Assembly: GCA_027487695.1 (NCBI GenBank)
Contig: JAIYDB010000100.1
Coordinates: forward strand, 1 to 41,558
Direction of reading: 5' to 3'
DNA: 41,558 nt
DNA from: Cytophagaceae bacterium
GTDB lineage: Bacteria; Bacteroidota; Bacteroidia; Cytophagales; Flexibacteraceae
Both the position numbers and the translations under genes were made by a program. A model generated the notes under the pieces. The model was not told the DNA's origin, ran no database searches, and saw only the letters and a list, made by a program, of their open reading frames with translations. Every line of letters starts with the position of its first letter. The stretch's first letter is position 1. Shown here in pieces: positions 10,018-31,242 of the stretch.

Positions 10018-11571
10018 TTACTTAGGTTCTAAAGAAATAAATGGTATAATCATTTCTTCTAATGAAATACCACCGTGTTGGAAGGTATTTCTGAACATAT
10101 TAGCAAAGTGGTTGTAGTTGTTCGGATATACAAAATACCCATCTTTCCAGGCAAATACATAGCTGGTGCTCATATTTGGTGCGGGTAGTTTAATATCTTC
10201 CGGACGGTGAGCTACCATTACTTCCTTTTCATCGAAGCCTAGGTTTTTGCCTTGCTTATAGCGGAGGTTGCTATTTACATTTCTATCGCCAACAATTCTG
10301 AGGGTTTTATTTACCCTTATTGTACCGTGGTCCGTGGTAATAATCAGACGACCTTTTTGCTTGGCAATTTCTTGCATCATTGCAAATAAGGGTGAGTGCT
10401 CAAACCAGCTATAAGTCAAACTACGATAAGCAGCTTCATCTGGAGCTAGTTCCTTAAGCATTTCGCTATCAGTACGAGCGTGACTTAGCATATCCATAAA
10501 ATTATAGACGATTACGTTCAGGTCGTTGGTTTTTAGCTTATTCATATTGTTCGCTAATTCCTGACCCTTATCGGTCTGTAAAATTTTATTGTAACTTGTT
10601 TTAATGGTTAGCCTATTGCGTTCCACTTGCTTGGTTAGCAATTCGTGTTCATGCAAGTTTTTGCCATCATCGTCATCGTCATTTTTCCAGTATTGTGGGT
10701 ACTGCTTGGCTATTTCGCTAGGCATTAAACCACTGAAGATAGCGTTCCTTGCATATGCAGTAGTTGTTGGCAGAATGCTGAAATAGGTTTCCTCCTTTTC
10801 AACAGTAAATAAATCTGCAAGCAAAGGCTCAATGGTTTTCCATTGGTCATAACGTAGATTATCAATCAATATGAAGTATAAAGGTCTTCCCGCTTGTAGT
10901 TGAGGAAATACCTTTTTCTTCATTATCTCATGACTCATTGTTGGGCGTTCTGCCTTAGGATCGTTCAGCCAATATTTGTACTCTTCAGTAATAAACTTTC
11001 CGAAGTTGGTGTTTGCCTCATCCTTTTGCATCTCCAGAACTGTAGCCATAGAACTGTTCTTGGTGCGTTGCATTTCCAGCTCCCAGAAAACCAGTTTCTT
11101 ATAAATTTCGGTCCATTCTTCGTGATCTATGCGTTCGCTATAGGCCATAGAAATGTTCCTAAAATCTTCCTGATAGCCACGGGTAGTAGTTTCAGAAATT
11201 AAAGCTTTACCATCCAAAATCTTCTTTACTGATAGCAGAATTTGATTTGGGTTTAATGGCTTAATCAGGTAATCTGAAATTTTTGCCCCAATGGCATCTT
11301 CCATAATATTTTCCTCTTCGCTTTTGGTAATCATTACCACTGGAAGATTGGGCTTTATGGTTTTTAGCTGTGCCAAGGTTTCTAAACCGCTTAGGCCAGG
11401 CATATTTTCATCTAAGAAAACAATATCAAAAGGGGTAGATTCTATAAGGTCTAGGGCATCGGCACCGCTATTTACCCCTGTTACTTTAAAGCCTTTGTTT
11501 TGTAAAAAAAGGATATGTGGCTTTAGGAGGTCTATTTCATCGTCGGCCCATAAAATGGTGTATTGCTGCAT
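10018..11571 (-). CDS. porX: PorX: T9SS two-component response regulator with PglZ phosphatase-like domain
   Basis: A 517-residue regulator of the type IX secretion system. Residues 1-120 are a receiver domain with acidic residues D10/D11, phosphoacceptor D54 in VFLDENMPG, and K104 in YLIKPLNP. Residues about 150-215 form a helical linker. Residues about 220-517 are a PglZ/alkaline-phosphatase-superfamily domain with the expected metal and catalytic positions: D237 (LIDNLR), the LPTTTAYAR threonines (269-271), D360 and H364 (NFMDMLSHAR), D414/H415 (TTDHGTIRV) and H499. In Porphyromonas gingivalis, PorX works with the PorY kinase and sigma factor SigP to control T9SS genes, and its PglZ domain is a nucleotide phosphodiesterase. 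An unusual run of five Asp lies near residue 300. It sits 39 bases downstream of an M50 protease gene on the same strand, probably co-transcribed with it. Neither porY nor sigP is in the window. Confidence 0.96.
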   Translation of the reverse strand: MQQYTILWADDEIDLLKPHILFLQNKGFKVTGVNSGADALDLIESTPFDIVFLDENMPGLSGLETLAQLKTIKPNLPVVMITKSEEENIMEDAIGAKISDYLIKPLNPNQILLSVKKILDGKALISETTTRGYQEDFRNISMAYSERIDHEEWTEIYKKLVFWELEMQRTKNSSMATVLEMQKDEANTNFGKFITEEYKYWLNDPKAERPTMSHEIMKKKVFPQLQAGRPLYFILIDNLRYDQWKTIEPLLADLFTVEKEETYFSILPTTTAYARNAIFSGLMPSEIAKQYPQYWKNDDDDDGKNLHEHELLTKQVERNRLTIKTSYNKILQTDKGQELANNMNKLKTNDLNVIVYNFMDMLSHARTDSEMLKELAPDEAAYRSLTYSWFEHSPLFAMMQEIAKQKGRLIITTDHGTIRVNKTLRIVGDRNVNSNLRYKQGKNLGFDEKEVMVAHRPEDIKLPAPNMSTSYVFAWKDGYFVYPNNYNHFANMFRNTFQHGGISLEEMIIPFISLEPK

Positions 11572-13333: not shown

Positions 13334-13405
13334 TTGAACTACCTAATTCTATATTTTACTTGCTAGAGATTGGTATTTTTAAGAAAAAGTGCCAGTTTTG
13401 CTACC

Positions 13406-13580
13406 GATTTAGGTACCAATTTGCCTTGTAAGCATTTTGGTTTAAAAGGGAACTGAGTGTAACTCTCAGGCTGTCCCCGCAACTGTAAGTCTATAAAAGC
13501 TACAACATTTTTTACACCACTGGCATTTGCTGGGAAGGTTGTTGTAGTAGATGAGCCAGGAGACCTGCCCAAGTCTAATC
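13406..13580 (+). promoter_or_regulatory. Cobalamin (B12) riboswitch aptamer
   Basis: The conserved core of the cobalamin riboswitch (Rfam RF00174 type) is present in order: AAAAGGGAA near 13444, GCTGTCCCCGCAACTGTAAG near 13472-13491, CCACTGG near 13517, TGGGAAGG near 13531, and the B12 box GATGAGCCAGGAGACCTGCC near 13550-13569. The closing P1 stem can form between GATTTAG (13406-13412) and CTAATC (13575-13580). It lies on the plus strand ahead of a five-gene operon that ends in a TonB-dependent receptor and a surface propeller lipoprotein, so binding of adenosyl- or other cobalamin should repress corrinoid uptake genes. Confidence 0.95.
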
Positions 13581-13707
13581 TTACCAAGCTTTCGGAGGAA
13601 AGGCTATGGGAGCATCAGACCATCGTTAAGCTAGCAACGATACCTCATTCTCCGTATAGTTACCCGGCCGGAAGTGTATTTGTTCACACAAACACTTCTA
13701 TCCAAAA
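13581..13707 (+). promoter_or_regulatory. Structured leader (likely expression platform) between riboswitch and first gene
   Basis: This stretch of 127 bases between aptamer and ATG can form several stems. AGCTTT/AAAGGCT lies around 13588-13605. CTAT-GGGAG (13604-13612) can pair with CTCCGTATAG (13650-13659) around an inner hairpin ATCGTT/AACGAT (13622-13641). GAAGTGT (13671-13677) pairs with ACACTTC (13692-13698), extended by TTGT/ACAA, and ends nine bases before the start codon. No stem is followed by a T-run, so control at translation initiation is more likely than termination. The pairing scheme is read by eye only. Confidence 0.55.
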
Positions 13708-14958
13708 ATGAAGAAAATCATTACCCTCATTTCCTTGTTGGCAATAAGCAGTATAGCTATTGCCCAAACAGGAACAAGTGCCATTGTAGTTTCTGGAGGT
13801 CCATTTGGGGCACTAAACAACCGAGTTGTTGTTCAGAAATATACTTATCCAAATCAATTGGTTTCCATTGATTCTATTCCTTCAAGTTCTGTTACAGGTT
13901 TGTTTTGCACCGCATCAAAAACAGTTGTAACTACCACAGCTGAACTAAGTATTTACAACCAATCAGGGACCAGATTAGCAAGAACTTCTAACCTAAGCGG
14001 TGTTAGAGCCCCAATTTTAATTAACGATTCTGTTGGTGTTGCCTTATTTGGGTTTGGTGTAGGTGCAGGCAAAAGCACTATCAGATTCTTTAATGCAAAC
14101 ACTGGTGCAATTACTGATACTATTGCTGTAACTCGTGAAGCGGGTTATGCACTAGTTCAAAGTGGAAAGTTATTTGTGAGTTTACCTGGAGGCTTTCCAA
14201 GCACTGAAGGACAAGTAGCAGTGATTGATCTTTCAACGAGAACCGTGCAAAGAACACTCAATTTAGGTTCAAGAATGGCGAGTATAGGTCAGCTTTTTAC
14301 AATAGGCGATAGCGTTTTAGCTTTAGCAACAATATCATTCGGAAGTCGAGTAGGAGGTATAGCAAGAATTAATAATCAGAACTTTAACTTTAAAGTAGAT
14401 ACCACAGTATTCCCAATTGGATCTGGAAATACCTTCGGAGTAATTCCTTCAGCAAATGATAGCTACTCTTTAATTGGTAGTTTTAATACAGCTGGAACTA
14501 TATCGCTGTTAAACTTACCAACAAGGCTGCTAACGAGTCAGTTTATCAATAAGCCTGTAACAGGTGCAGATATTGATAGAGTGAATAATCGTTTAGTATT
14601 TACTGATGCGGCAGGGTTTACAGGCAGGGGCAAGTTATATGTTTACAACCTGAATGGTGAAGCCCTTGATAGCGTTACCGTAGGTGTTTCTCCAGAATGG
14701 GTAAAAGTAATTCCTGCTGGTCCTAATTCAGTACGTCCACAGTTTTCAGAGGCAGGAATTAAACTATACCCTAACCCTGCAACCAACCAAGTTCAGGTAA
14801 TAGGAGAAGTAAAAGAACTATCGTTTACTGATATTTCTGGAAGGTCAACAGTTTTGCCAGTAATTAATGGTGCAGCGACTATAAGCCATTTACAAGCAGG
14901 TATTTATATGGTTAAGCCTGTGGGTAGCTATAAGCCTATAAAACTTATAGTAAGGTAG
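13708..14958 (+). CDS. T9SS-exported beta-propeller protein, first gene of the B12-riboswitch operon
   Basis: A 416-residue secreted protein. Residues 1-19 are a Sec signal peptide (...ISSIAIAQ). Residues about 22-335 are rich in short beta strands with recurring D-S/T and G-x-V-x-V-x-D/N units (for example GQVAVIDLSTRTVQRTLNLG and GKLYVYNLNGEALDSVTVG), the look of a seven-bladed YncE/DUF5074-like propeller. Residues about 345-416 are a type A T9SS sorting domain (LYPNPATNQV ... LQAGIYMVKPV ... KLIVR). The next gene starts two bases after its stop. Given riboswitch control and the BtuB/BtuG-like genes downstream, corrinoid capture at or beyond the cell surface is a reasonable inference, but no binding residues can be named. 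Confidence 0.82.
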   Translation: MKKIITLISLLAISSIAIAQTGTSAIVVSGGPFGALNNRVVVQKYTYPNQLVSIDSIPSSSVTGLFCTASKTVVTTTAELSIYNQSGTRLARTSNLSGVRAPILINDSVGVALFGFGVGAGKSTIRFFNANTGAITDTIAVTREAGYALVQSGKLFVSLPGGFPSTEGQVAVIDLSTRTVQRTLNLGSRMASIGQLFTIGDSVLALATISFGSRVGGIARINNQNFNFKVDTTVFPIGSGNTFGVIPSANDSYSLIGSFNTAGTISLLNLPTRLLTSQFINKPVTGADIDRVNNRLVFTDAAGFTGRGKLYVYNLNGEALDSVTVGVSPEWVKVIPAGPNSVRPQFSEAGIKLYPNPATNQVQVIGEVKELSFTDISGRSTVLPVINGAATISHLQAGIYMVKPVGSYKPIKLIVR

Positions 14959-14960
14959 TT

Positions 14961-16340
14961 ATGAAGTTCAGGCTGCTTATGATGGGCTTGTTTATTTCAC
15001 TGGTTGCGAATTGTTCAAATTTGCAACTGGGTGAAGTGCGCATACTTAATCATAGGCAGCTTTCTATAAACCTTGGTTGGAGTCAATGCTGGAATTTAGA
15101 AGGCAAAAGAGCTCCGTTTAACCACGATGCGGTCTATCTGTTTTTAAAAGGAAAGCAGTCAAATACCGAATCTATCTCATTGCCAATAGCTTCAGTAAGC
15201 TTGAAATCGACTTTGGTTTCTGCGAAGCTAAAATCTATTGGGGTAATTTTTGAAACTGAAACTCAAGATACTGCCCTCAGGTTTACCGCTATCATTGATT
15301 TGGTAACGCCTTTATCTCAAGGCAGTTGGGAAATTTCAGCTTATGCTATTGAAATGGTTTATATCCCAGAAGGTAGTTTTTGGATGGGCGATAGTCTTAG
15401 TAATAATACATTAGGAGGTAAAAATAGTAGTCTGTTACTGGTTGATGGTAACCCAAAACCTATCTTTCAGATGGGAGATACTAATGCCTTGAGCAATAAT
15501 AACACTTCTGGTTTCTCATCCTTTTATTTGATGAAGCAAGAGGTAAGCCAAGCTAGTTATACAGATTTTCTGAATAGCATTTCTAAAGAAGAAGCGGAGG
15601 TATTGGCACCAAGTATTTTAAACTTATCTATTGCCGATTCTCGAAGAAATAGGTGCTTTATTACAAAGGTGAAGGGTAAATATGGTACGGATGCCAACCA
15701 AAATGGCATTTTAAACGAGTGGAACGATGGCGGAAGTATTGCCTGTAATTGGTTAACAAACAAACAGTTACTCGCTTATCTAAGCTGGGCTGGATTAAGA
15801 CCTTTTACCGAACTTGAATTTGAAAAAGCTTGTCGAGGTTCTTTAAAGCCTAAGGCAAAGGAATTTGCTTGGGGTACTCAATATGCTACCGATGGAAATA
15901 CAATTACACAACTAGGCACAGCAGTTGAAAAAGTATCAGAAATAGGTAATGATAGTTCTGGTTTAACTAATCACGCATTATTGGCGGGCAATCTTTACTT
16001 AGAAGGACCTTTAAGAAGTGGATTTGCTCTTTCTATTACAAGTAATAGAGTTACTGCAGGGGCTGGATACTACGGAAATGCTGATTTAAGCGGAAACTTA
16101 TGGGAGCAATGCCTTAAAGTAAATATCAATACCACCCTTCCATTAGGTAATGGAACAACCAATTACACAACAGAATGGGGAACGGGAAAGGATTATATCC
16201 CTAGAGGTGGAGCTTGGTTAAGCTTGGTATTCAATATCTTAGGATATGGATTTAGAGATTTAGCTATTAGCGACCGCTTTTATATTGATTACGATTTGAA
16301 CGAGCCAAGAGGCACTATAGGAGGTAGGGGAGCGCTATGA
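14961..16340 (+). CDS. Exported FGE-fold (SUMF1/PvdO-like) protein lacking catalytic cysteines
   Basis: A 459-residue protein with an N-terminal signal sequence (about 1-19). Residues about 24-125 form an N-terminal beta domain with a GWSQCWN...DAVYLFLKG pattern, common ahead of FGE domains in Bacteroidota exported proteins. Residues about 131-455 carry the formylglycine-generating-enzyme fold (PF03781): MVYIPEGSFWMGD, LSWAGLRPFTELEFEKACRG (about 274-293), ADLSGNLWEQC (374-384), RGGAW (415-419) and GFRDLAISDR (430-439). The Cys pair that active FGE enzymes use near the RGGxW segment is absent, so a structural or binding role is likelier than catalysis. The T9SS core proteins GldK/PorK and GldJ are known FGE-fold proteins of this non-catalytic type. 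No T9SS tail is seen. It overlaps the next gene by four bases (ATGA). Confidence 0.82.
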   Translation: MKFRLLMMGLFISLVANCSNLQLGEVRILNHRQLSINLGWSQCWNLEGKRAPFNHDAVYLFLKGKQSNTESISLPIASVSLKSTLVSAKLKSIGVIFETETQDTALRFTAIIDLVTPLSQGSWEISAYAIEMVYIPEGSFWMGDSLSNNTLGGKNSSLLLVDGNPKPIFQMGDTNALSNNNTSGFSSFYLMKQEVSQASYTDFLNSISKEEAEVLAPSILNLSIADSRRNRCFITKVKGKYGTDANQNGILNEWNDGGSIACNWLTNKQLLAYLSWAGLRPFTELEFEKACRGSLKPKAKEFAWGTQYATDGNTITQLGTAVEKVSEIGNDSSGLTNHALLAGNLYLEGPLRSGFALSITSNRVTAGAGYYGNADLSGNLWEQCLKVNINTTLPLGNGTTNYTTEWGTGKDYIPRGGAWLSLVFNILGYGFRDLAISDRFYIDYDLNEPRGTIGGRGAL

Positions 16341-16723
16341 TCAAGTTTCTAGTATTTGTAGTTTGCCTTTGCTTTGCTCAAAATGTTTTTGCCCAAGGAC
16401 TAGGCGAGCAATCGGCTTACCGCGGGGGGCAGGGTAGTGGTTACGCGGTAAATATAGTAACGGTAACCATTGGTTCTAACGGTAACGTGGAAAGTGATTT
16501 TGCCAAACCACAAAACAAATTGCTATCAGAAACTAACGCTATCTTATTTACCGATACACTTGGTAATTATACACTTAGCGCTTTCTCTAATGAAGGAAAG
16601 CAAGTAAAACTCCTAGTAAAGAACAATGAAGTTCAGCTATTGGGTAATCTGAAAACAGGGATTTATTGGGTAACTCTTACAAGGTCTGGAAGGAAAGAGG
16701 TTTATAAAGTCATTAAAGGTTAA
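16337..16723 (+). CDS. Mini T9SS-sorted secreted protein (128 aa)
   Basis: A signal peptide at residues 1-19 (...QNVFAQ) is followed by about 35 residues with a glycine-rich patch (YRGGQGSGYAVNIV). The remaining 70 or so residues resemble a type A sorting domain (LFTDTLGNYTLSAFSNEGKQV ... LKTGIYWVTLTRSGRKEVYKVIKG). There is almost no room for a passenger domain, so the mature product is a short Gly-rich peptide on a T9SS tail. It overlaps the FGE-like gene by four bases and the receptor gene by one (TAATG), which implies translational coupling. It could act as a partner or surface anchor for the FGE-like protein, which lacks its own tail. That is inference, and I know no characterised homolog. 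Confidence 0.75.
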   Translation: MIKFLVFVVCLCFAQNVFAQGLGEQSAYRGGQGSGYAVNIVTVTIGSNGNVESDFAKPQNKLLSETNAILFTDTLGNYTLSAFSNEGKQVKLLVKNNEVQLLGNLKTGIYWVTLTRSGRKEVYKVIKG

Positions 16724-18519
16724 TGCAAAAATGGATTGGTCTTTTCTTGCTATTCAGTATTGGGCTTGCCAAGGCGCAACCTGTACATACTTTGCCAGTG
16801 TTTACGCTTAATGAAAAATCTATCCAAAAGCTAAATAGAGCAGATTCTTCTAAGCTGCTCAATATCAGTGAAAAAGTAGTTCAGTTGCAAGGAATATCCT
16901 TTAGAAGTTACGGACCTGGAGGTTTACAAACACTCTCGTACAGGGGTGGGGGAGCAAGTCAATTGCTCACTACTTGGGAAGGAATGCCAATCAATTCTTC
17001 CATGAATGGACAAACGGATATTAGTAATTTCAATGGGGCGGCTTTGTTGCCAGGCATTGAAAATCAAAGTTCTGGATTTTCAGGGGCATTATCTGGTCAG
17101 CTTGACTTAAAGAACCATGTCGGGGGGGGTAATTTCTTAAATGTAATTGTTGGTTCAATGGGTGAATATGCGAGCAGTGTTTCTGTCTCTCAGTCATTGA
17201 AAAGGGGTTTTTATTCGCAAACCAATCTTGGTGGTAGCTATAACCCTAATCAATACCCATATAGAAACACATTTACCAACGAGCTTCAAAGCCGACAAAA
17301 TGCAGCTTGGCAATCGGCCACAATTTTTCAAGCTTTTGGTTGGAAGGGTAAAAACATTGAAACCGAAGGCAAGTATTGGTTTCAGAATACCTTTAGAGAA
17401 ATTCCAGGAAGTTTAACTACTGGCTTTCAGAATGATAAGCAGCTTGATAGAAGCCACAAGTACCTGCAAACCTTTTCTTACAACCGCTCACGGACAAGTT
17501 ATAAGGCTAAAATTTTAGCAGGTTCAGATTTACTTCACTTTCATCACGGGCAACAAAGGGAGGTATTACCATCTATAAATAGGTATATCCGAAGTTTGCT
17601 CAGTGCCGATTATAGTCTCTTACCCTTGGTAAAAGCAAATATAACGGCAACAGGCACAACAGATTGGGCACACAATAAAGAGTATTCCACATGGCGCAAT
17701 AGAAGTATTTATAGTGTTAATACTGGTTTGCTCGTGAAGACTAATTTGAATCTTCAAGTTAAGGTTGCCAATAGAGCCGATATTCAGCGGAACGTTTGGA
17801 ACCCTTCGGTAACCGTGGTGTATCAATTAAAGGCGGTTTATTTAGATGCAGCTTTTGAAGAAACAACTAGATATCCAACTATGAACGAGCTATTCTGGAG
17901 TGTGGGTGGCAATCCTAACCTATTACCAGAACGCGCTCAAAAATGGAGAGGTAGTTTTGGGTACCAGAAAAACAGACTTGCTTTTAAAGTTGAAGCTTTT
18001 AAGTATTTAGTAAACAACTATTTACTTTGGTATCCTTCAGACTTAGGTATTTGGCAGGCGCAAAGTGCGGGAAATGTTTTGCAACAAGGTGTAGAACTAA
18101 GTGCTGCCTATGATTTAGGTAAGAATGTTGGAACCTTTTGGCCAGAACTTTCAGTTAATGCAAGTTTTACCCAAGCAGAGGCTAAGGACGAAAATGGCTT
18201 TCTAGCTAATAATCGTCAATTGATATTCATACCAAAATATCAGTACTTAGCTCAATCCAAATGGTCTTTACCCAAACAATTGCAAGCCATGGTACAATGG
18301 CAGTGGGTAGGCGATAGGTACATCGGCTTTTCAGGCGAGGGTATTTTGGAAGGATATGGTCTTTTTAATGCCAGTATAGAAAAGAGGCTAACTGCTTTTA
18401 AGCGCAGCTTTGATATAGGAATTAGGGCAGATAACCTTTTGAATAAGGAGTATTATACCTTGCCTAATTTCCCTATGCCACTACGGTCTGTTCGAATTTC
18501 AATTACAAGTAAACTATGA
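16723..18519 (+). CDS. TonB-dependent outer-membrane receptor, BtuB-like
   Basis: A 598-residue outer-membrane receptor. The signal peptide ends at about residue 19 (LAKAQ). VHTLPVF follows as a candidate TonB box. The plug domain at about 45-150 shows GISFRSYGPGGLQTLSYRGGGASQLLTTWEGMPIN, the typical plug pattern. The remaining residues form a barrel with alternating amphipathic strands and a terminal strand (PMPLRSVRISITSKL), and a VGDRYIGF-type late-barrel strand lies before it. The length is close to that of E. coli BtuB (about 600 aa). Position in a B12-riboswitch operon and the following BtuG-like gene argue for corrinoid import across the outer membrane with TonB-ExbBD energy. No btuF/C/D inner-membrane genes are in the window. 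Confidence 0.87.
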   Translation: MQKWIGLFLLFSIGLAKAQPVHTLPVFTLNEKSIQKLNRADSSKLLNISEKVVQLQGISFRSYGPGGLQTLSYRGGGASQLLTTWEGMPINSSMNGQTDISNFNGAALLPGIENQSSGFSGALSGQLDLKNHVGGGNFLNVIVGSMGEYASSVSVSQSLKRGFYSQTNLGGSYNPNQYPYRNTFTNELQSRQNAAWQSATIFQAFGWKGKNIETEGKYWFQNTFREIPGSLTTGFQNDKQLDRSHKYLQTFSYNRSRTSYKAKILAGSDLLHFHHGQQREVLPSINRYIRSLLSADYSLLPLVKANITATGTTDWAHNKEYSTWRNRSIYSVNTGLLVKTNLNLQVKVANRADIQRNVWNPSVTVVYQLKAVYLDAAFEETTRYPTMNELFWSVGGNPNLLPERAQKWRGSFGYQKNRLAFKVEAFKYLVNNYLLWYPSDLGIWQAQSAGNVLQQGVELSAAYDLGKNVGTFWPELSVNASFTQAEAKDENGFLANNRQLIFIPKYQYLAQSKWSLPKQLQAMVQWQWVGDRYIGFSGEGILEGYGLFNASIEKRLTAFKRSFDIGIRADNLLNKEYYTLPNFPMPLRSVRISITSKL

Positions 18520-19595
18520 AAAACCTGATTCTATTTGTCTGGGGCTTGGTTTTGATTGGTTTTACAAGTTGTAATTCTAATGATAAGGAACCTACTACAA
18601 ATTGCTTAACCGAGAAAGCAGTTAGTAAGCTATTGATAGGTAATGAAGGTAATTTTAACTGGGGAATTGGTACGCTTTCACTATACGACTCTGTTTCTCA
18701 AGCCACTGTAAATGATGTGTTTGCTTGCCAAAATGGAGAACCTGCTGGTAATGTGGTGCACAGTCTTTACCAATACGAAGATGAAATTTTTGTGGTGGTG
18801 AATAATAGTCGTAAGGTAGAAGTTTTGAATAATGAAACTTTGAAAAGAAAGCGGACCATCACTAATCTGAATTCACCTCGCCATATTATTAATGTAGGTA
18901 ATAAGCTATTTATTAGTGACTTATATAACAATAGAATTTCAGTATTGGGTAGTAGTGCTACCCATGTGGAACGTCAAATTCCTGTTTATGGTTGGGTGGA
19001 GAAGTTGTTTCCTTTTTCAAATAATAAGCTACTCGCAATCAGAACTTTCAGAATGGGGGTAAGTGTTTTTGCCTTATCTGTTATTTTATCAATAAATGCT
19101 GAAAATGAAGTGGTTACAGATAGCTTACTAGTGCCTAATGCCATAACCGATACACATTTAGAAGGTAACTATTTACTCATATCTACAACCGACTATAATT
19201 CAACTGCCAATGATAGTTTGCTAATAATGGATATAACTACAAACAAAATTATTACAAGAGCTTCATTATCAGGCACAAAGGGACGAGTAAGAAGAATAAC
19301 CTATTCAGCGCAGACAAAGTCAATATATTATGTTAAGTACGATGTTCATAAAATAGGCTGGGATGCTGAAAATCCTACAATCATTGGGGAGTCATCAATT
19401 TTGCTAGCCAAGCAACAAGGACAAGAATTTTACAGTTTGGCTTGTTTTAACAATCAAGCAAATACTTTATATATAGCTGATGCTAAGAACTATACATCAA
19501 ATGGCGAGCTGCTAATCTATAATCTAAACCAAGGTAAGGTAATTAAGGAAATACCTACGGGTATAATACCTAGCAGCTTACTTTGGATAAAATAG
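18516..19595 (+). CDS. Surface beta-propeller lipoprotein, BtuG-like
   Basis: A 359-residue lipoprotein. Its signal ends in a lipobox, LIGFTSC, with Cys at about residue 19 and acidic/Asn residues after it (NSNDKEP), as in surface-exposed Bacteroidota lipoproteins. The mature part starts with LLIGNEGNFNWGIGTLSLYD, the typical opening of DUF5074/YncE-like propellers. Repeats such as KVEVLNNETLKRKRTI, HIINVGNKLFISDLYNNRISV and LLIYNLNQGKVIKEIPTG follow, consistent with a seven-bladed propeller. In Bacteroides thetaiotaomicron the propeller lipoprotein BtuG binds B12 very tightly and caps BtuB. This gene overlaps the BtuB-like receptor by four bases under the same riboswitch, so the same role is likely. 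The corrinoid contact residues were not identified. Confidence 0.83.
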   Translation: MKNLILFVWGLVLIGFTSCNSNDKEPTTNCLTEKAVSKLLIGNEGNFNWGIGTLSLYDSVSQATVNDVFACQNGEPAGNVVHSLYQYEDEIFVVVNNSRKVEVLNNETLKRKRTITNLNSPRHIINVGNKLFISDLYNNRISVLGSSATHVERQIPVYGWVEKLFPFSNNKLLAIRTFRMGVSVFALSVILSINAENEVVTDSLLVPNAITDTHLEGNYLLISTTDYNSTANDSLLIMDITTNKIITRASLSGTKGRVRRITYSAQTKSIYYVKYDVHKIGWDAENPTIIGESSILLAKQQGQEFYSLACFNNQANTLYIADAKNYTSNGELLIYNLNQGKVIKEIPTGIIPSSLLWIK

Positions 19596-19772: not shown

Positions 19773-22580
19773 TTATTGTACGGCTAGCTTCTTAAGTCCT
19801 GTGCCACGGCTATGCTCAATCCTAATGAGGTACATTCCAGATGCTAATCCTTTAGCTTGATTTATTTCAGCTGAATAACCAATTAAAGTAGTTTTAAAGA
19901 TCGTTTTACCTTGTAAATCGGTAATAATTAGGTTGCTTCCTTCAAAACGTTCTGGTAAGGTTAACTTGAAGCTACCATTATTTGGATTTGGGAATACTTC
20001 AATCTCAGAGGCTGTTAAGGTTTCGTTTAAGTTTGTAACTAATATGCTTCCAGTTGAAAGACCGCATCCTGCATTACTGCGCACAGTTACCCAATACACC
20101 CCATTACCATTGATAGGTAAAGCTGTGGTGGTAGAATCTACAGCCAAGGTATCATTTCCTCTACGCCAAGTATAGTTCATTCCTGCCTGTGGCGTAATGA
20201 ATAAGGTATCGTTTCGTTGGGTGATGGTGCTTCTTGGCGACGCATTTACTGAAGTAATGTTCACTGAGTCAACTACCTGACAGCCAGTTCTATTATTAGT
20301 AATTTTCAAGCGATATAGACCTGGAACACTATAGCTTTGTAAGCTATTGGTACTAATTGTTCCGCTTGGTAATCTCCATTCATAGCTACAATCCGCATCT
20401 ACAAAGGCATTTACAACGGCATTATTGGAGCATACTCCCCTATCTAATCCTAAATCAAGACTTAAGGCAAGTCTGCTTGCATTTGCTCTTGAATCAACTA
20501 CTCGAGGGGCGGTATAGGTTACATTTATCCAACATCTATTGCTGTTAGCAACGGTATCGGCAGTATGTTGTGCTTTTAATACATGCCAGCCTGTGAATGT
20601 GGCTGTAAATTCTTTAGTAAGATTGCCCACCCCTACCACGCTATCAATAACCCTTCCACAAAAATCAGTTAAGGTGAGTTTAATAGGTGCATTTGGGTTG
20701 GTGCTAAAAATCCTGTAAGTAATTAAGCTGCCAGCTGCTGGATATATTTTACCAGCGGTTCTGGTGGCCGTACTACGTGCAGGCAATGCCCCGCCCTGCT
20801 GTAAACTACCTGGGTGGCTATCGCCAAGGTCGTCGGCCATTTCCCATTCTTGTTGGGTTGTTCTTACAGGGATGTTTAAAGGAGCATTAAAGTTCAAACC
20901 TTCTGGTCCCCATACAGAAAACCCTCTTCTGCGGGCGGTTCCATTACACGGAGGTGTACTAATTTGAACTCTTCTATCGGCAGCAACAACTCTAACATCA
21001 TTTGCTCCACTAGAACCTGCATAGTCAATTAGTCTGGTTCCTGCTGGGAAACTGGTAGTTATCCAAGTGCCTTGCCAAGTATTCCAGTTATCGTTAATAC
21101 CGATGATGGCTTTATTATTACGCTCAATAATTAGATGATCAGTACTTTGATGAGGAACTAAATAAGCTCCGCCTTTCCAATCCATTACTTTATGTGCCCT
21201 AGTTAGGAAAGCAATATCATCCCGTACAGGTAAAGTGGTATCGTTAGGTCTATGGTTATATCTGTTACCTCTGGTACCAATATCAAATAAATCTTCAAAG
21301 AATATCTGTGGGCTACCATCAACCGCCATAGCTACAGCATAAGCAGCTGCAAGTCTTGGCTCGCGTGGGTCTATGTTAGCTGAAAGTTCACTTCCAGAAC
21401 TCCATCTATTAGTAGGATAATTTCCATTTGGTAAAAGTGGTGGACGGAAGGTATCGTGGTTATTTACAAAAGGTACAGTTCTGGAACGTCGGCCTTGTTG
21501 AGCACCTGGTAGGTTACCAATATTGTAATTGCCTAATCCATAAACCATTTCAACTAATCCTGTAGTTCCGGTAAATCCTCTTAACGAAAAATCAAAAGTA
21601 CCTGCCCTACCTAAAACAGCATCTACCCAAGCATCCATTTCGTTTGAACCACCCACCCATTCACCAACGGTAAACATATCGGTTCCGCCATTGGCAAAAG
21701 CAGCATTAAACTGAGTATTGAATATTATATCTTCACAAACTGCTGCAGGAAAATGCTTGATTGCATCTAATCGCCAACCATCTACACCAGTTTGTTTCTT
21801 CAACCAAACCATCCAATTGCGTGCTTCGTTGCGCATATAATTATCGCCTTGGGCAGGATTAAATGTGGCGTTTGTTGCTAAACCGCGAGCCCCAGCATTG
21901 TATGAAATATCTGGTCCGAAGGTAATTCTGCTTAAATCTTCGCCTGAAAATCTGTTATCTGCAGGGTTTGGGTGAAAGTTCTGCCAGTTTTTTGACCAAC
22001 GACCATTTCGTGCTAAATAGTTGGCTGCATTTTCGCTAGTCGCAGGCGTGCTAAAGGAAGAATACCTGAAGGTTTTAGTGCCATTAGTAGGGTCAATTGG
22101 GATGTTTCCGTAGTTTGACCTATTCACATTTTCTGAATAGAAGGTTAGTGCTGCTGGGTCTTGTCCTCCTGCACCATTTGCACTTCCAGCTTGGTCACAA
22201 TGGTTAAGCACAATATCTTGTATTACATCTATCCCATTAGCGTGTAATACAGCTACCATTCTTAAGAATTCGTCCTTATCGCCAAAATTAGTTTTTAAAC
22301 GACCTTTTTGGAATTTATCGCCTAAGTCATAGTGATCAAAAGGTGAATATCCAACGCTAAATGGGTTAGCATTTTTACTAGAAACAGGAATCCAGACTGC
22401 TTCAACGCCCATTTCGCGTAATCGGGGCGCCATATCGGTTAGGTAATTAGCCCAACCACTTGGGTAATTATCGTTTCTAAAATCCCACCAAAAGCCTTGT
22501 AAAAGTACTTTTCTAGGTTGTGCTTGTAGCAGCTCGGCTCCTAGCAGGAGTACGAATATGAAAATAATGATTCGTTTCAT
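19773..22580 (-). CDS. Secreted alpha-amylase (GH13, liquefying type) with T9SS sorting domain
   Basis: A 935-residue exported glycoside hydrolase. The signal peptide is at 1-20 (LLQAQ). The GH13 barrel (about 24-480) has region I DIVLNH (122-127), region II GWRLDAIKH with nucleophile D272, region III TVGEW with acid E307, and region IV FVNNHD with D376. Segments such as AVWIPVSSK and YDLGDKFQKG resemble the bacterial liquefying amylases (GH13_5-like), which cut internal alpha-1,4 bonds of starch. A C-terminal amylase beta domain follows to about 540. Residues 600-700 form a further beta domain. Two Ig/PKD-like domains lie at about 706-775 and 780-848, and a type A T9SS tail at 859-935 (VFPNPNNGSFKL ... 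GMYLIRIEH). It is oriented opposite to the other two GH13 genes and separated from them by a divergent promoter region. Confidence 0.93.
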   Translation of the reverse strand: MKRIIIFIFVLLLGAELLQAQPRKVLLQGFWWDFRNDNYPSGWANYLTDMAPRLREMGVEAVWIPVSSKNANPFSVGYSPFDHYDLGDKFQKGRLKTNFGDKDEFLRMVAVLHANGIDVIQDIVLNHCDQAGSANGAGGQDPAALTFYSENVNRSNYGNIPIDPTNGTKTFRYSSFSTPATSENAANYLARNGRWSKNWQNFHPNPADNRFSGEDLSRITFGPDISYNAGARGLATNATFNPAQGDNYMRNEARNWMVWLKKQTGVDGWRLDAIKHFPAAVCEDIIFNTQFNAAFANGGTDMFTVGEWVGGSNEMDAWVDAVLGRAGTFDFSLRGFTGTTGLVEMVYGLGNYNIGNLPGAQQGRRSRTVPFVNNHDTFRPPLLPNGNYPTNRWSSGSELSANIDPREPRLAAAYAVAMAVDGSPQIFFEDLFDIGTRGNRYNHRPNDTTLPVRDDIAFLTRAHKVMDWKGGAYLVPHQSTDHLIIERNNKAIIGINDNWNTWQGTWITTSFPAGTRLIDYAGSSGANDVRVVAADRRVQISTPPCNGTARRRGFSVWGPEGLNFNAPLNIPVRTTQQEWEMADDLGDSHPGSLQQGGALPARSTATRTAGKIYPAAGSLITYRIFSTNPNAPIKLTLTDFCGRVIDSVVGVGNLTKEFTATFTGWHVLKAQHTADTVANSNRCWINVTYTAPRVVDSRANASRLALSLDLGLDRGVCSNNAVVNAFVDADCSYEWRLPSGTISTNSLQSYSVPGLYRLKITNNRTGCQVVDSVNITSVNASPRSTITQRNDTLFITPQAGMNYTWRRGNDTLAVDSTTTALPINGNGVYWVTVRSNAGCGLSTGSILVTNLNETLTASEIEVFPNPNNGSFKLTLPERFEGSNLIITDLQGKTIFKTTLIGYSAEINQAKGLASGMYLIRIEHSRGTGLKKLAVQ

Positions 22581-23842: not shown

Positions 23843-26692
23843 TTGAAGAAGCTTTCTATTGGCATACTAGCCACCACTTTGGGCTGGCTGCTGCCCTACT
23901 CTTTTGCCTCGGGGCAAATTATAACTACCGACCCTGTTTTTCCTACAGCGAGTGATAGTGTTACAATTACTTACGATGCCAATCAAGGCAATGGAGCCTT
24001 AAGAGGTACCACAGCTACTGTTTTTGCCCATATTGGTGTTGTTACTTCTAGCAGAACAGGAACAGGTTGGCAGTTTGTACAAGGTAACTGGGGTACTAAC
24101 GATGCCCGGGTTCGTATGACAAGCCTAGGTAATAACCGATTTCGCTTAGGTTTTAGAGTGCGCTCGTTTTTTACTGGTTTGGGTGCTAATACACCAGTAT
24201 TCCGTTTTGGAATGGTATTCCGTAATCAAGCAGGCGATATCGTTGGTAGGTCATCTACTGGCGAAGATATATTCGTTCAGTGCTTTCAGCCAGGTGAATT
24301 TGGCTTGAAACTTGTTAGCCCAGGTGGTACTGCTATTTCCTCCTCAATAGGTGGAACGGTAAATTTAGATGCTAGAACAACCATTCCAGCAACTATTTCA
24401 GTTACAGCAAATGGAGTGCAAGTGGGTACAGTAAGTAGTGCCACTAGCCTTACTCAACCAATTACAGCTAATTTTGGCAATACTAAGGTTGTAGTAACAG
24501 CAACAAATGGAACTGATGTTAGGCGCGATAGCTTCAACATAATAGCCTTTGGTGCAGCACCAACTGTAGCTATGCCAGCTGGTTTAGAACCAGGAATTAC
24601 GTATGATTCAGATACTTCTGCAATCTTATGTTTGTTTGCTCCTGGTAAATCTAATGCATTTGTTATTGGTGAATTTAACAATTGGGAGCGTACCGTTGGC
24701 GGTTTCATGTTCAAATCAACTGATGGTAATTACCTTTGGAAGCGTATAACTGGCTTAGAACCAGGCAGAGAATATGCCTTTCAATATTTAGTGGATAGCA
24801 CCATTAGAATTGCCGACCCTTATTGCGAAATTGTTTTGCACGAAGATGATAGGTTTATTCAGGCTACTACTTACCCTAATCTTAAGCCGTACCCAACAGG
24901 TAGAACAAATGGCTATGTAGGTATCTTGCAAACTGCCAGACCAGCTTACCAATGGCGATATCCTAATTTTGTGCCTGTGAAAAAGGAAGATATGGTGGTT
25001 TACGAACTGCATATCAGAGATTTCTTTGGAAACAACCGTCAGAACTTTCAATCAGTAATAGATACCCTACCCTACTTGTTAAAGTTAGGTGTAAATGCTA
25101 TTGAATTTATGCCTTTAAATGAGTTTGAAGGTAATTTAAGTTGGGGATACAATCCTTCTTATCACAATGCTTTAGATAAATATTATGGTACTAGAGAAGC
25201 GTTCCAAGCTATGGTTGATTCTTGCCACGGCAGAGGTATTGCTGTTATAGTTGATCAAGTATTAAATCACGGTTTTAGTCAGAATCCACTTGCAAGATTG
25301 TGGTGGAATAGTGCCACTTCAAAACCAAGTTCTGATTCTCCTTATTTTAATGTTGATGCAAGACATCCTTTCAATGTAGGAAGCGACTTTAACCACGAAT
25401 CGGCCGCTACTCAGTATTATGTAGATAGGGTAAACAGACATTGGATACAAACCTATAACATTGATGGATATCGTTTTGACCTTAGTAAAGGATTTACTCA
25501 GGTTAATTCAGGTACAGATGTTGGTCGTTGGGGTAATTACGATGCTTCCAGAATACGTTTATTAAGCAGAATGAGCAGTGCTATAAGAGGTTATAAGCCA
25601 AATGCTTTACTTATTTTGGAACACTTTGCAGATGGTACAGAAGAACGCGAACTATCTAATACCCATAACTTTATGTTCTGGGGAAATATTGTGAACAACT
25701 ACACAGAAGCAGCTATGGGTTATTCAGATAACTCAAATATCTATGGTAGCTCTCATGTATCTAGAGGTTGGAACGAGTTTAACTTGCTTTCGTATATGGA
25801 AAGCCACGATGAAGAGCGTATTTCCTTTAAGTTAAAGCAGTTTGGTAATTCTTCTGGCAGCTATAATACACGTACTCCAGGTACAGCTTTGGATAGAAAA
25901 AAGCTTGCTGCGGCATTCTTTTTCACAATTCCAGGTCCTAAAATGATGTGGCAGTTTGGTGAACTTGGCTATGATTTCTCTATTAACCATTGTGGTAATG
26001 GAACAATTAACGAAAGCTGCCGTACCGATGCTAAACCTGTTCGTTGGGATTACCTTCGCCAACCAGATAGAAAGAAGTTATATGATACTTATTCGGCTCT
26101 TATTCGTCTGAAAAAGGAAGAAGAAGTATTTGAAGCTAGGAACTTAGACTTATTCCAAAGTGGCGATTTAAAGCGTATCAGACTAAGTTATGGTTCTGAA
26201 CACGTAATGATTGTGGGTAACTTTGGCGTTGTAAGGAGGTCAATTACTGCAAACTGGCAAAGAACTGGACGTTGGTACAACTTCTTTGCTGGCGATAGTA
26301 TTGAAGTTACAGGCAATAATACCTATGATTTAGCTCCTGGTGAATTTAGGATTTTCACTACCCGCAGGCAGTTTAAACCAGCCAATGATTTACTAATCAG
26401 CAGTACTACTGAAAGAATAAAGGCAGTGGAGGGAGTTACTATTCAATCGGTTTACCCTAACCCAATTTCAGGAATGGGCAAAATGGAAGTCTTCACTGAA
26501 ACCTTCCAAACCATTCAAGTAAACCTATTTGATTTAACTGGTCGTAAGCTTGCCAATATTTATGATGGCACTATTGTTCCTGGAGCAAACCTAATTGAGT
26601 TTACTAAACCAGCCCAAATAAAGGCAGGTGTATATCAGTTAGTAAGCACAGTAAATGGTCAGGCAATAACCCAATCTATTGTGATTGAATAG
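23843..26692 (+). CDS. Secreted GH13 glucan hydrolase (pullulanase/isoamylase-like layout) with T9SS sorting domain; TTG start
   Basis: 949 residues, starting at TTG. The next in-frame ATG is about 90 codons in, and the TTG start gives a proper signal peptide (MKKLSIGILATTLGW ... FASGQ). Residues about 30-146 are the N-terminal module shared with the proteins at 22819 and 28993, followed by an Ig-like domain (about 150-235). Residues about 250-345 form a CBM48-like domain (FVIGEFNNWERTVGG ... YAFQYLVDS ... ADPY). The GH13 barrel (about 385-840) has DQVLNH (471-476), GYRFDLSKG with nucleophile D546, LILEHF with acid E593, and MESHD with D656. A CBM48 domain ahead of the barrel is typical of debranching and branching-type enzymes, so alpha-1,6 activity is possible. 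The T9SS tail is at about 866-949 (VYPNPISGMG ... KAGVYQLVST). Specificity is not provable here. Confidence 0.9.
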   Translation: MKKLSIGILATTLGWLLPYSFASGQIITTDPVFPTASDSVTITYDANQGNGALRGTTATVFAHIGVVTSSRTGTGWQFVQGNWGTNDARVRMTSLGNNRFRLGFRVRSFFTGLGANTPVFRFGMVFRNQAGDIVGRSSTGEDIFVQCFQPGEFGLKLVSPGGTAISSSIGGTVNLDARTTIPATISVTANGVQVGTVSSATSLTQPITANFGNTKVVVTATNGTDVRRDSFNIIAFGAAPTVAMPAGLEPGITYDSDTSAILCLFAPGKSNAFVIGEFNNWERTVGGFMFKSTDGNYLWKRITGLEPGREYAFQYLVDSTIRIADPYCEIVLHEDDRFIQATTYPNLKPYPTGRTNGYVGILQTARPAYQWRYPNFVPVKKEDMVVYELHIRDFFGNNRQNFQSVIDTLPYLLKLGVNAIEFMPLNEFEGNLSWGYNPSYHNALDKYYGTREAFQAMVDSCHGRGIAVIVDQVLNHGFSQNPLARLWWNSATSKPSSDSPYFNVDARHPFNVGSDFNHESAATQYYVDRVNRHWIQTYNIDGYRFDLSKGFTQVNSGTDVGRWGNYDASRIRLLSRMSSAIRGYKPNALLILEHFADGTEERELSNTHNFMFWGNIVNNYTEAAMGYSDNSNIYGSSHVSRGWNEFNLLSYMESHDEERISFKLKQFGNSSGSYNTRTPGTALDRKKLAAAFFFTIPGPKMMWQFGELGYDFSINHCGNGTINESCRTDAKPVRWDYLRQPDRKKLYDTYSALIRLKKEEEVFEARNLDLFQSGDLKRIRLSYGSEHVMIVGNFGVVRRSITANWQRTGRWYNFFAGDSIEVTGNNTYDLAPGEFRIFTTRRQFKPANDLLISSTTERIKAVEGVTIQSVYPNPISGMGKMEVFTETFQTIQVNLFDLTGRKLANIYDGTIVPGANLIEFTKPAQIKAGVYQLVSTVNGQAITQSIVIE

Positions 26693-28992: not shown

Positions 28993-31242
28993 ATGAATCA
29001 AATACCCAAGTCGATTGCACTATTTTTAGGTGCAATCCTCCTTTGCTTAGGGAATACCCTTGCACAAAACCCAGTACGAACAGAACCTGAAGTTTTTACA
29101 ATAGACGACTCCGTTACTATTTTTTACAATGCCAATTATGGCAATAAGGCGCTTAGAAACTTTAGAGAAGATATTTTTTTATATGCAGGTGTTATAACCC
29201 AAGCAAGTACAAGCGAAACCGACTGGAAAAACGTTACTCCAAGCCATTGGGCGGCATTTCCAGAAAGTTCAAGACTTACAAGGTCGGCGACCGATAGTAA
29301 TGTGTATAGTATTAGAATTTTACCAAGAAGTTATTTTAATATTCCTACTGGTACATTTGTGAAGAGCCTAAAAATGCTATTCCGTAATAATGGGGCTATT
29401 TTAGTTGGCAGAGAAACCAGAAATGCCGATATCGCTTATCCAGTTAAAACACAGGGAACTTGGTGGAACGAGGCTATCTTCTATGAGATTTTCGTCCGCA
29501 GTTTTCAAGATAGTAATGGCGATGGTATAGGCGATTTTCCAGGTCTTACTAGCCGATTAGGTTACTTGAAAGAACTTGGCATTAACGCTATTTGGCTTAT
29601 GCCTATCAGTTCATCGCCAACTTATCATGGATACGATGTAATAAATTACAAGAGTATTAACCCGCAATATGGTACTATGGCGCAGTTTGAGCAGTTCTTA
29701 GATTCAGCTCATAGTCTTGGTATTAAAGTGGTTATTGACTTTGTGATGAACCACTCCAGTACACAGCATAATTGGTTCCAACAATCCGCCAGAAGGGTGG
29801 AGCCTTATACCAACTTTTACCGATGGTCTGAAACGCAACCTACTGCATTAGGACCTTTAGGAACTGTGGCTTGGCACTGGAACGCTACCAGAAGGCAATA
29901 TTACTATGGTGCATTTTTTAGCGGAATGCCCGATTTGAATTACGATAACCCTGCCGTAAAAGACTCTATTTTCGATGCATCCCGTTTTTGGTTGCAGAAA
30001 GGTGTAGATGGCTTTCGGATAGATGCAGTTCAGTATTTGGTTGAAACAGGTGGTCAACAAGCCAATACCGCTCAAAGCTTAGCTATTTGCAGGGAGTTTA
30101 ATCAGTTTATCAAAACGATAAATCCTGAGGCAATGACAGTAGGTGAGGTATGGAGTAACCTTAACAATATGCTTCTGTACAGAAATAGGCTTGACTATTG
30201 CTTTGAATTTAACCTTGCTGAATTTAATGCTCAAGCGGCTAGAAATAACGATAGTGTATCGGTTAGGAATCTAAGAAACTACACCCAAGGGATAAACTAT
30301 AACAACTATCCAAACCAGCAATACGGTAATTTCTTAACCAATCATGATCAGAACCGCATTTTTGGTGTGCTTGGTCAAAGTATTCTGAAAAGTAAAATAG
30401 CTGCTACCCTACTCCTAACTACTCCTGGGTTACCTTACTTATACTATGGTGAAGAAATAGGAATGTCAGGTACAGGTGTTGATGAAGAAAAGCGTTTGCC
30501 AATGCCATGGTCCACATCAACCAGAGGTGCAGGTTCTTTTACAACAGGAAACCCTTGGCGAACCACTAATCAGAACAACAATTCCCGCAATGTGGCTTCA
30601 ATGAATTCAGATCCTAATTCATTACTAAACCATTACAAGAAGCTTATTCAATTACGGGCTAATAACTCAACCTTAAACAAAGGGGAGTTTAGGTTTTTAA
30701 CTGTTAATTCTCCCTTAGTAATTGCCATTGAACGCCGTTATGGCAATAAAACCTTGTATGTGATATGTAATGTAGGAACCGTAGCTGTGGAAGGGCTTTC
30801 AGTGAACTTAATGCACGAATACCTTAATCCTGAAAGCACTAACTTCCTGAATTTGATGGATAGTAGTGTGGCAAATTATTATTTAGGACCTGATAACAAT
30901 GCCATTTACGGGATGCAATTAGCTCCTGGAGAGGTTAAAATTCTTGAAGTAACGAATAGCCCAGTAACAAGTGCAAAAAGCGAGGCAACACTTGGAGCCA
31001 TTCAACTTTACCCTAATCCAGTATTAAATGAACTGTACATCTTATTGCCAGAAGTTGCCAATCAAAAGAAAGTAACTATCCAAATTACTGACCTTCAAGG
31101 CAGAATTATACAACAATCTGATGAGCAGGTAGAAGGAAAGCAAATATCTTTAAAGCTTGCTAATACTATGAAAACTGGAACCTACTTGGTTACTGTGATT
31201 ACCGATAAAGGCATCTTCAATAAAAAAGTGGTGAAGCAATAA
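28993..31242 (+). CDS. Secreted GH13 alpha-glucan hydrolase (oligosaccharide-type) with T9SS sorting domain
   Basis: A 749-residue exported enzyme. The signal peptide is at 1-24 (GNTLAQ). Residues about 33-148 are the N-terminal beta module also seen at 22819 and 23843 (DDSVTIFYNANYGNKAL ... PRSYFNIPTG). The GH13 barrel starts at WWNEAIFYEIFVRSF (157-171) with a calcium-type loop DSNGDGIGD (173-181). It has region I DFVMNH (249-254), region II GFRIDAV with nucleophile D344, region III TVGEVW with acid E385, and region IV FLTNHD with D452. The calcium loop and the order of motifs resemble enzymes acting on maltooligosaccharides rather than the liquefying amylase at 19773. The T9SS tail is at about 672-749 (LYPNPVLNELYI ... 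KTGTYLVTVI). The terminator stem begins inside the last codons. Confidence 0.91.
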   Translation: MNQIPKSIALFLGAILLCLGNTLAQNPVRTEPEVFTIDDSVTIFYNANYGNKALRNFREDIFLYAGVITQASTSETDWKNVTPSHWAAFPESSRLTRSATDSNVYSIRILPRSYFNIPTGTFVKSLKMLFRNNGAILVGRETRNADIAYPVKTQGTWWNEAIFYEIFVRSFQDSNGDGIGDFPGLTSRLGYLKELGINAIWLMPISSSPTYHGYDVINYKSINPQYGTMAQFEQFLDSAHSLGIKVVIDFVMNHSSTQHNWFQQSARRVEPYTNFYRWSETQPTALGPLGTVAWHWNATRRQYYYGAFFSGMPDLNYDNPAVKDSIFDASRFWLQKGVDGFRIDAVQYLVETGGQQANTAQSLAICREFNQFIKTINPEAMTVGEVWSNLNNMLLYRNRLDYCFEFNLAEFNAQAARNNDSVSVRNLRNYTQGINYNNYPNQQYGNFLTNHDQNRIFGVLGQSILKSKIAATLLLTTPGLPYLYYGEEIGMSGTGVDEEKRLPMPWSTSTRGAGSFTTGNPWRTTNQNNNSRNVASMNSDPNSLLNHYKKLIQLRANNSTLNKGEFRFLTVNSPLVIAIERRYGNKTLYVICNVGTVAVEGLSVNLMHEYLNPESTNFLNLMDSSVANYYLGPDNNAIYGMQLAPGEVKILEVTNSPVTSAKSEATLGAIQLYPNPVLNELYILLPEVANQKKVTIQITDLQGRIIQQSDEQVEGKQISLKLANTMKTGTYLVTVITDKGIFNKKVVKQ

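Follow-up and report, generated by a model that had tools for sequence, protein, structure and literature searches.

Vitamin B12 (cobalamin) is a contested nutrient. In a 41,558-nucleotide stretch of DNA from a Cytophagaceae bacterium (assembly GCA_027487695.1, contig JAIYDB010000100.1; hereafter the window), a cobalamin riboswitch is followed by five genes, P1 to P5, that probably form a riboswitch-controlled corrinoid uptake operon of the BtuB–BtuG kind with an accessory capture layer delivered by the type IX secretion system (T9SS). This functional assignment draws on genomic context and protein fold. The last two genes encode the putative importer, P1 encodes a propeller with a T9SS sorting domain, and between them lie genes for a secreted protein with the fold of formylglycine-generating enzyme (FGE) (P2) and for a mini protein with a glycine-rich motif (P3) (Table 1).

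Riboswitch, importer and T9SS propeller

The aptamer matches the RF00174 model end to end and is the only such match in the whole 2.89-Mb assembly. A sequence-only reading of the window had proposed a complete cobalamin aptamer ahead of five tightly spaced genes. Both features were recovered, with the aptamer beginning 12 bases further upstream than that reading had placed it and with the open reading frames (ORFs) reproducing the spacings of +2, -4, -1 and -4 bases for P1–P2, P2–P3, P3–P4 and P4–P5. Folding of the leader is not more stable than that of shuffled sequences (z -0.95) and promoter and terminator scans are at chance level, so we claim no expression platform. The terminator scan gives no plus-strand site that would mark the 3' end of the transcript.

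P4 contains the barrel and plug domains of a TonB-dependent receptor, both over cut-off, and a profile built from 12 P4 homologues matches the BtuB structures 8bmx (E 3.3e-121) and 8p98 (E 1.2e-120). It reaches 40.7 of 599.7 bits against NCBIfam TIGR01779 and is not that equivalog. For P5 the only domain match is a sub-threshold one to DUF5074 (14.8 against a cut-off of 27.2), whereas a profile from 10 P5 homologues matches the BtuG chain 8p97 (E 1.1e-95), among others, and the lipobox cysteine C19 is invariant in the alignment. The proposal that the last two genes are a BtuB/BtuG pair is therefore upheld by profile matches to solved complexes, and at the level of sequence P4 is a BtuB and P5 a BtuG. 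As in a BtuB–BtuG operon, a cobalamin riboswitch lies upstream and the BtuG lipoprotein gene adjoins that of the BtuB-family receptor, here with a four-base overlap. BtuG forms a lid on BtuB and passes B12 to it (PMC10404256).

The C-terminal sorting domain of P1 is over cut-off in both Pfam (PF18962, 30.2 against 27) and NCBIfam (TIGR04183, 30.5 against 23), and the genome has a T9SS, as shown by SprA (2350 bits) and by PorX in the window; together these identify P1 as T9SS type A cargo. An AlphaFold model of P1 is of moderate quality (predicted local distance difference test (pLDDT) 73.1, predicted template-modelling score (pTM) 0.66). The top 13 rows of a Foldseek search with this model are all BtuG-family structures (best E 1.6e-12), VIA comparison gives BtuG1 at Z 28.1 (299 residues, 3.0 Å) and BtuK1 at Z 24.8, and a P1 profile search returns BtuG chains (E about 1e-4) alongside sorting domains. 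The N-terminal sequence of P1 has no lipobox cysteine, the T9SS sorting domain standing in its stead, and we do not class P1 as a BtuG because the lipoprotein signal is absent. Export of BtuG-type propellers by the T9SS is not confined to P1, because two DUF5074/BtuG-type propellers beside a BtuB match in other genomes (G418 and G433; L165 1486-2832, minus strand, and L169 706-2052, plus strand) also carry T9SS sorting domains over cut-off.

The strongest argument for P1 as a corrinoid-capture protein is its replacement by DUF4465 proteins, which bind B12 (PMC13398666, PMC12751083). Among 23 loci in which a P2 homologue lies in a B12 context, P1 is present in 15, a DUF4465 protein in seven, both in none and neither in one, which has two BtuG genes. 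The DUF4465 assignment is verified by Pfam in all seven cases; the gene takes the first slot in five loci and stands at the end in two, and two of the seven proteins, those of L082 and L092, resemble P1 in bearing a T9SS sorting domain. Context and predicted fold together make it quite likely that P1 binds corrinoids.

Table 1. Features of the operon in window coordinates.
Feature	Position	Strand	Residues or extent	Basis
Cobalamin riboswitch aptamer (RF00174)	13394..13586	+	full model 1-189	106.9 bits (gathering score 31.5)
P1: signal peptide, BtuG-type β-propeller, T9SS type A sorting domain	13708..14958	+		ORF, domain matches, model
P1 sorting domain match	about 14764-14916	+	353-403	Pfam/NCBIfam
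P2: secreted, N-terminal β-sandwich and FGE fold	14961..16340	+		PF03781 over cut-off, model, tree
P2 signature RGGxWxS...FRDLAISDRFY...RxTxGGRG	16203..16331	+	415-457	B12-associated FGE clade
P3: mini protein with signal peptide, one GGxG(D/S)GYA motif, T9SS-type C-terminal domain	16337..16723	+		alignment
P3 motif YRGGQGSGYA	16418..16447	+	28-37, right after signal peptide	ORF, alignment
P4: BtuB-type TonB-dependent receptor	16723..18519	+		PF00593 and PF07715, profile
P5: BtuG-type surface lipoprotein propeller, lipobox cysteine C19	18516..19595	+		profile, alignment

In the gap that separates P1 from the aptamer, a GGAGG precedes a short ORF of seven codons (ATG...TAA; 13606-13629, plus strand), which is either a leader peptide or chance. 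The T9SS response regulator PorX (NF052313, 829.7 bits against a cut-off of 300) is encoded at 10018-11571 on the minus strand, two genes separating it from the riboswitch. Three alpha-amylase-family proteins (19773-22580, 23843-26692 and 28993-31242) have T9SS-type C-terminal ends by the P3 profile, the NCBIfam sorting domain being listed only for the first. Three proteins of this genome have a B12-binding domain over cut-off and therefore likely provide a use for B12.

Conservation of the arrangement

Near-full-length P1 is found in seven genomes among the matches listed (its own, G008, G027, G043, G138, G188 and G309); the search with the sorting domain included drew mostly unrelated T9SS proteins, and only rows covering the propeller were used. 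In six of the seven a cobalamin riboswitch lies directly upstream. In G043 and G138 the riboswitch has no gene but P1 behind it, and G188 has a phosphoribosyltransferase gene 48 bases after P1, in the same orientation.

Across 148 genomes of the same order, P2 has a match in 29 and RF00174 in 125, and an FGE homologue stands behind a riboswitch in four (the source genome, G008, G018 and G027). In the remaining 25 P2-positive genomes the best FGE locus shows no riboswitch, the loci of G092 and G120 being on contigs shorter than 6 kb. A sample of 395 genomes from the phylum contains a B12-type FGE in 22 at E <= 1e-40; all 22 loci were inspected, 13 of them with Rfam, and only the source genome is B12-linked (1/395). 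The distribution is patchy.

The full order riboswitch–P1–FGE–mini–BtuB–BtuG occurs in seven loci (the window, L042, L085, L093, L100, L105 and L111), and L092 has the five-gene order with a DUF4465 protein replacing P1. Other loci keep large parts of it: L083 and L084 read riboswitch–FGE–mini–BtuB–BtuG–DUF4465, L090 reads riboswitch–FGE–mini–BtuG–BtuG with no BtuB match, and L096 and L102 have two divergent arms, P1–FGE and mini–BtuB, with BtuG also in L096. L106 has no BtuG match, and the remaining B12-context loci are shorter or cut by contig ends. The mini gene is present in 18 of the 23 loci, six-frame reading having identified it in L084 (overlapping reverse ORFs) and L100; none is seen in L095 and L099, where the contig stops within 600 bases of the FGE gene. 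Record titles place the carriers in Cytophagales, Cyclobacteriaceae, Chitinophagales, Sphingobacteriales and Perlabentimonas, with P2 identities of 33-39%. By title most are metagenome-assembled genomes; named strains are Nafulsella turpanensis ZLM-10 (L084) and Perlabentimonas gracilis M08_MB (L101). At one riboswitch per genome in 11 genomes sampled from family f1, four of which have a second riboswitch, three have the five-gene operon, two P1 only, four riboswitch–BtuB–DUF4465, one riboswitch–BtuB without a DUF4465 match and one no riboswitch match.

Scanning GTDB contigs with four riboswitch-linked P2 proteins confirmed at least 452 relatives, and the 80 best of these were retained. From 114 FGE rows a tree was built by a quick method, with seven duplicate-contig loci and two rows of more than 700 residues excluded; it contains a 36-row clade (starred support 100) that holds all 20 rows labelled B12-linked beforehand. 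L097, found to be linked by Rfam, raises the linked rows to 21 of 36, and the aptamer is Rfam-confirmed in all 21. The B12 label changes seven times on the tree against a mean of 18.7 in shuffles, none of 500 shuffles being as low. For the 78 rows outside the clade, no B12 box (<=2 mismatches, both strands) was found in their 64 loci (959 kb). The sequence-only reading had held that it would be undermined if the first three genes were seldom tied to B12 riboswitches elsewhere; the linkage of P1 in six of seven genomes, and of 21 of 36 clade rows but none of the 78 outside it, speaks for that reading.

The clade is also marked at the C terminus of P2. A signature spanning this region (Table 1) is present in 35 of the 36 rows of the clade and in none of the 78 outside it; the pattern was built on the same data, so that these counts describe it and are no independent test. 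S421 and D433 do not vary among the 24 clade rows compared, and R432 (22), A435 (23), R450 (21) and T452 (23) are nearly so; the same six positions vary in 22 non-clade rows. Among these 24 are L087, L088 and L094, for which there is no B12 context. Eleven P2 positions are clade-specific, compared with at most one in 100 random splits, and seven of the eleven fall within the last 45 residues. Judged by this residue pattern, the B12 clade has rebuilt the C-terminal end of the FGE-fold protein.

Several observations weigh against a T9SS-delivered capture layer. Non-BtuG propellers reach Z 26.2 against P1, close to the 28.1 of BtuG, since propellers resemble each other, and the P1 model itself is only moderate. 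BtuG2 holds B12 through a negatively charged face (PMC10404256), and P1 of this genome is basic (isoelectric point 9.6), as it is in L085 and L100, although P1 is acidic in 10 of 13 cases, L102 and L105 among them. The mutual exclusion of P1 and DUF4465 partly tracks phylogeny. The full-length P1 of G309 (L162) has no cobalamin riboswitch nearby by Rfam, the sole exception among the seven, and the mini gene was not seen in L082, L086 and L098. No riboswitch was found for 15 of the 36 clade rows: ten belong to family f2, L087, L088 and L094 have no B12 neighbour, L089 is cut by the contig start, and in L103 P1 and BtuB adjoin the FGE gene, yet there is no aptamer match. The arrangement is also rare in both genome samples. 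This rarity, together with the four same-family relatives that have riboswitch–BtuB–DUF4465 instead, would suit a bystander explanation, with the first three genes coding for ordinary secreted proteins that came to lie behind the riboswitch by chance. We regard that as extremely unlikely, given that the order or large parts of it are kept across distant Bacteroidota at such low P2 identity and that P1 alone follows the riboswitch in two genomes. By riboswitch linkage and gene order, the first three genes are a conserved system and have not come together by chance.

Family f2, whose record titles, where known, read Bernardetiaceae or Cytophagales, has proteins that carry the B12 signature with no riboswitch found nearby (L045, L047-L053, L055, L060 and L253). 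L253 was found later, has the signature and is again unlinked to B12. A B12 box in L052/L104, 5.9 kb from the FGE gene, was rejected, as it lies within an opposite-strand gene and the RF00174 matches listed for that genome are at another site only.

The FGE-fold protein and its glycine-motif partner

P2 has both the domain and the fold of a formylglycine-generating enzyme: PF03781 scores 43.7 against 23.3 bits, and a model with pLDDT 87.5 and pTM 0.90 consists of a β-sandwich followed by an FGE fold, for which VIA returns FGE (5nyy/1y1e, Z 19.8), EgtB (Z 18.8), PorK (9mzu, Z 18.6) and the diversity-generating retroelement variable protein TvpA (Z 17.9). The catalytic cysteine pair of FGE, which we take to lie in the C-terminal part, is absent from P2, because the last P2 cysteine is residue 384 and beyond it no alignment column exceeds 40% cysteine in either group (46 sequences). 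An alignment of P2 to solved FGE fell short of the catalytic cysteines; that S421 occupies a cysteine position is our assumption from the GG anchor.

Treating the first three genes as a T9SS set holds for P1 but not for P2. No T9SS sorting domain was found in P2 with Pfam or NCBIfam, so P2 is not itself recognisable T9SS cargo, and P3 is a candidate, its domain match staying below cut-off (Pfam 18.4 against 27, NCBIfam 22.7 against 23; 24.0 against 27 in the L083 homologue). In an alignment of 14 mini proteins, Q25, G30, G31 and G35 are invariant.

Family-wide, the gene after the FGE gene often codes for a protein with a GGxxDG(Y/F)-like motif, single or repeated many times and usually right behind the signal peptide, and a T9SS sorting domain is frequent in these motif proteins. 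Of the non-FGE downstream ORFs, 47 of 58 outside the B12 clade have the motif, 14 of 18 in the clade and 0 of 4 in family f2; elsewhere in these loci it is found in 42 of 1105 ORFs, some of them displaced partners. The usual distance between copies is 25-27 residues. A separate phylum-wide search recovered the pairing in 12 of 18 loci (one miss, L228, is the contig of L152), and eight of a further 16 loci have it (L243, L246, L248, L251, L252, L254, L255 and L257). It also occurs in two records that by title lie outside the Bacteroidota, Omnitrophica (L117 9874-19779) and Glaciecola amylolytica (L131 11422-12423). A record titled as a Bifidobacterium breve metagenome-assembled genome (L107) also has an FGE gene of Bacteroidota type, but its title is probably wrong. 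From this family-wide pairing, P3 is a short, one-motif form of the common partner.

Two variations on the layout were seen. In nine loci (L061, L119, L123, L125, L133, L140, L141, L145 and L147), tandem FGE genes stand before one downstream gene, mostly a motif-repeat gene, as if several FGE proteins served a single repeat protein. In L091 a motif mini gene is on the opposite strand, 9 kb from the FGE gene.

Less certainly than for P1, we suggest that P2 and P3 dock to each other and were drawn into B12 uptake as a pair, the docking itself being a tentative proposal. It is preferred over catalysis because PorK uses the FGE fold, without catalytic cysteines, as a hub on which proteins dock (PMC12421860). 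The pairing and the presence of the enzymes FGE and EgtB among the closest folds of P2 would suit a maturase that chemically modifies the GGxGDGY motif of the protein paired with it, P3 in this operon and repeat proteins in other loci, in the way FGE acts on the sulfatase motif, the modified peptide then doing the binding or anchoring. The FGE cysteine pair is missing from P2, however, no conserved metal-ligand set was recognised in it, and PorK uses the same fold without catalysis, which make a maturase distinctly improbable. Alternatively, the motif could be a calcium-binding turn like those of RTX (repeats-in-toxin) proteins, with P3 a small structural cap whose function is unrelated to P2. 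RTX nonapeptides have a similar richness in glycine and aspartate but a different register from GGxGDGY; the spacing of the copies and the fact that the motif specifically follows FGE-fold genes render this very unlikely.

P2 might instead be a second corrinoid binder, with P3 merely anchoring it. The eleven clade-specific positions, concentrated behind the GG motif in what is presumably the FGE active-site region, suggest a rebuilt pocket (S421, R432, D433, A435, R450 and T452) that could serve this purpose. The signature also occurs in L087, L088, L094, the f2 rows and L253, for which no B12 neighbours were found, and the clade-specific residues might equally serve the single-motif partner, so a binder of this kind is doubtful; that P2 plays any part in corrinoid binding is likewise a prediction we would not lean on. 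The idea that T9SS cargo contributes to corrinoid capture is well supported by context for P1. For P2 and P3 it is not established, because throughout the family the pair occurs in loci with no link to B12 as well, and a docking role is no less likely.

A broader extension of the docking proposal, which we think unlikely, is that secreted FGE-fold proteins and GGxxDG(Y/F) proteins form a general surface-display system of the Bacteroidota with one branch specialised in B12 operons. The motif protein would then travel as T9SS cargo and bring along or hold in place a partner lacking a sorting signal, in the manner of cohesin and dockerin, and in the B12 branch the rebuilt FGE pocket would make P2 a corrinoid-handling component between the T9SS capture proteins and BtuB–BtuG.

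With P2 and P3 taken as a docking pair, the operon could work as follows. Scarce cobalamin would lead the riboswitch to permit synthesis of all five proteins. P1 would leave through the T9SS, shed its sorting domain, become anchored on the surface and catch corrinoids; removal of the sorting domain is usual for T9SS cargo, and cargo of type A becomes attached to anionic lipopolysaccharide (A-LPS) (PMC8545088, PMC9143113). P5, as the lid on P4, would receive corrinoids from P1 for import by P4. P3, its sorting domain removed, would show the short GGxGDGYA peptide on the surface, and P2 would dock its former substrate groove onto that peptide, adding a second surface element to the complex.

Comparison with known systems

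The closest described systems are the cobamide operons of Bacteroides thetaiotaomicron, in which BtuB–BtuG is accompanied by BtuH, BtuJ, BtuK and BtuL. They share with the operon in the window cobalamin riboswitches, BtuB, BtuG and extra surface corrinoid binders (PMC12751083, PMC10404256, PMC8941943). There the accessory proteins BtuH, BtuJ and BtuK, which bind corrinoids, are lipoproteins (PMC8941943, PMC12751083), whereas here the extra propeller bears a T9SS sorting domain and is joined by an FGE-fold protein and a GGxGDGY mini protein. BtuJ is a DUF4465 protein, of the type that takes the accessory slot in some of the FGE-containing B12 loci; its fold is a jelly roll (PMC12751083) and differs from that of P1.

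P2 itself has two kinds of relative. PorK/GldK of the T9SS ring shares the FGE fold and the lack of catalytic cysteines but is part of the export machine, and P2 falls far under the GldK model cut-off (19.5 of 350 bits). FGE, EgtB and TvpA share the fold; P2 differs in that it lacks the FGE cysteine pair, has an added N-terminal β-sandwich and is partnered by a motif protein. The term 'type IX' is absent from PMC8941943 and PMC12751083, as are 'formylglycine' and 'sorting' from PMC8941943, and among the matches listed from open-licence full-text literature none joins BtuG or B12 uptake with FGE-fold or T9SS-exported capture proteins.

What may be new is thus a T9SS-exported layer on a known B12 uptake operon, and possibly the FGE/motif pair. 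Signature and motif together give a sequence handle on this uncharacterised pair of FGE-fold and GGxGDGY proteins. The capture layer described in Bacteroidota consists of the lipoproteins of gut Bacteroides, and other lineages apparently do the same job with T9SS exports; if so, both the model of B12 uptake and the known uses of the T9SS are widened.

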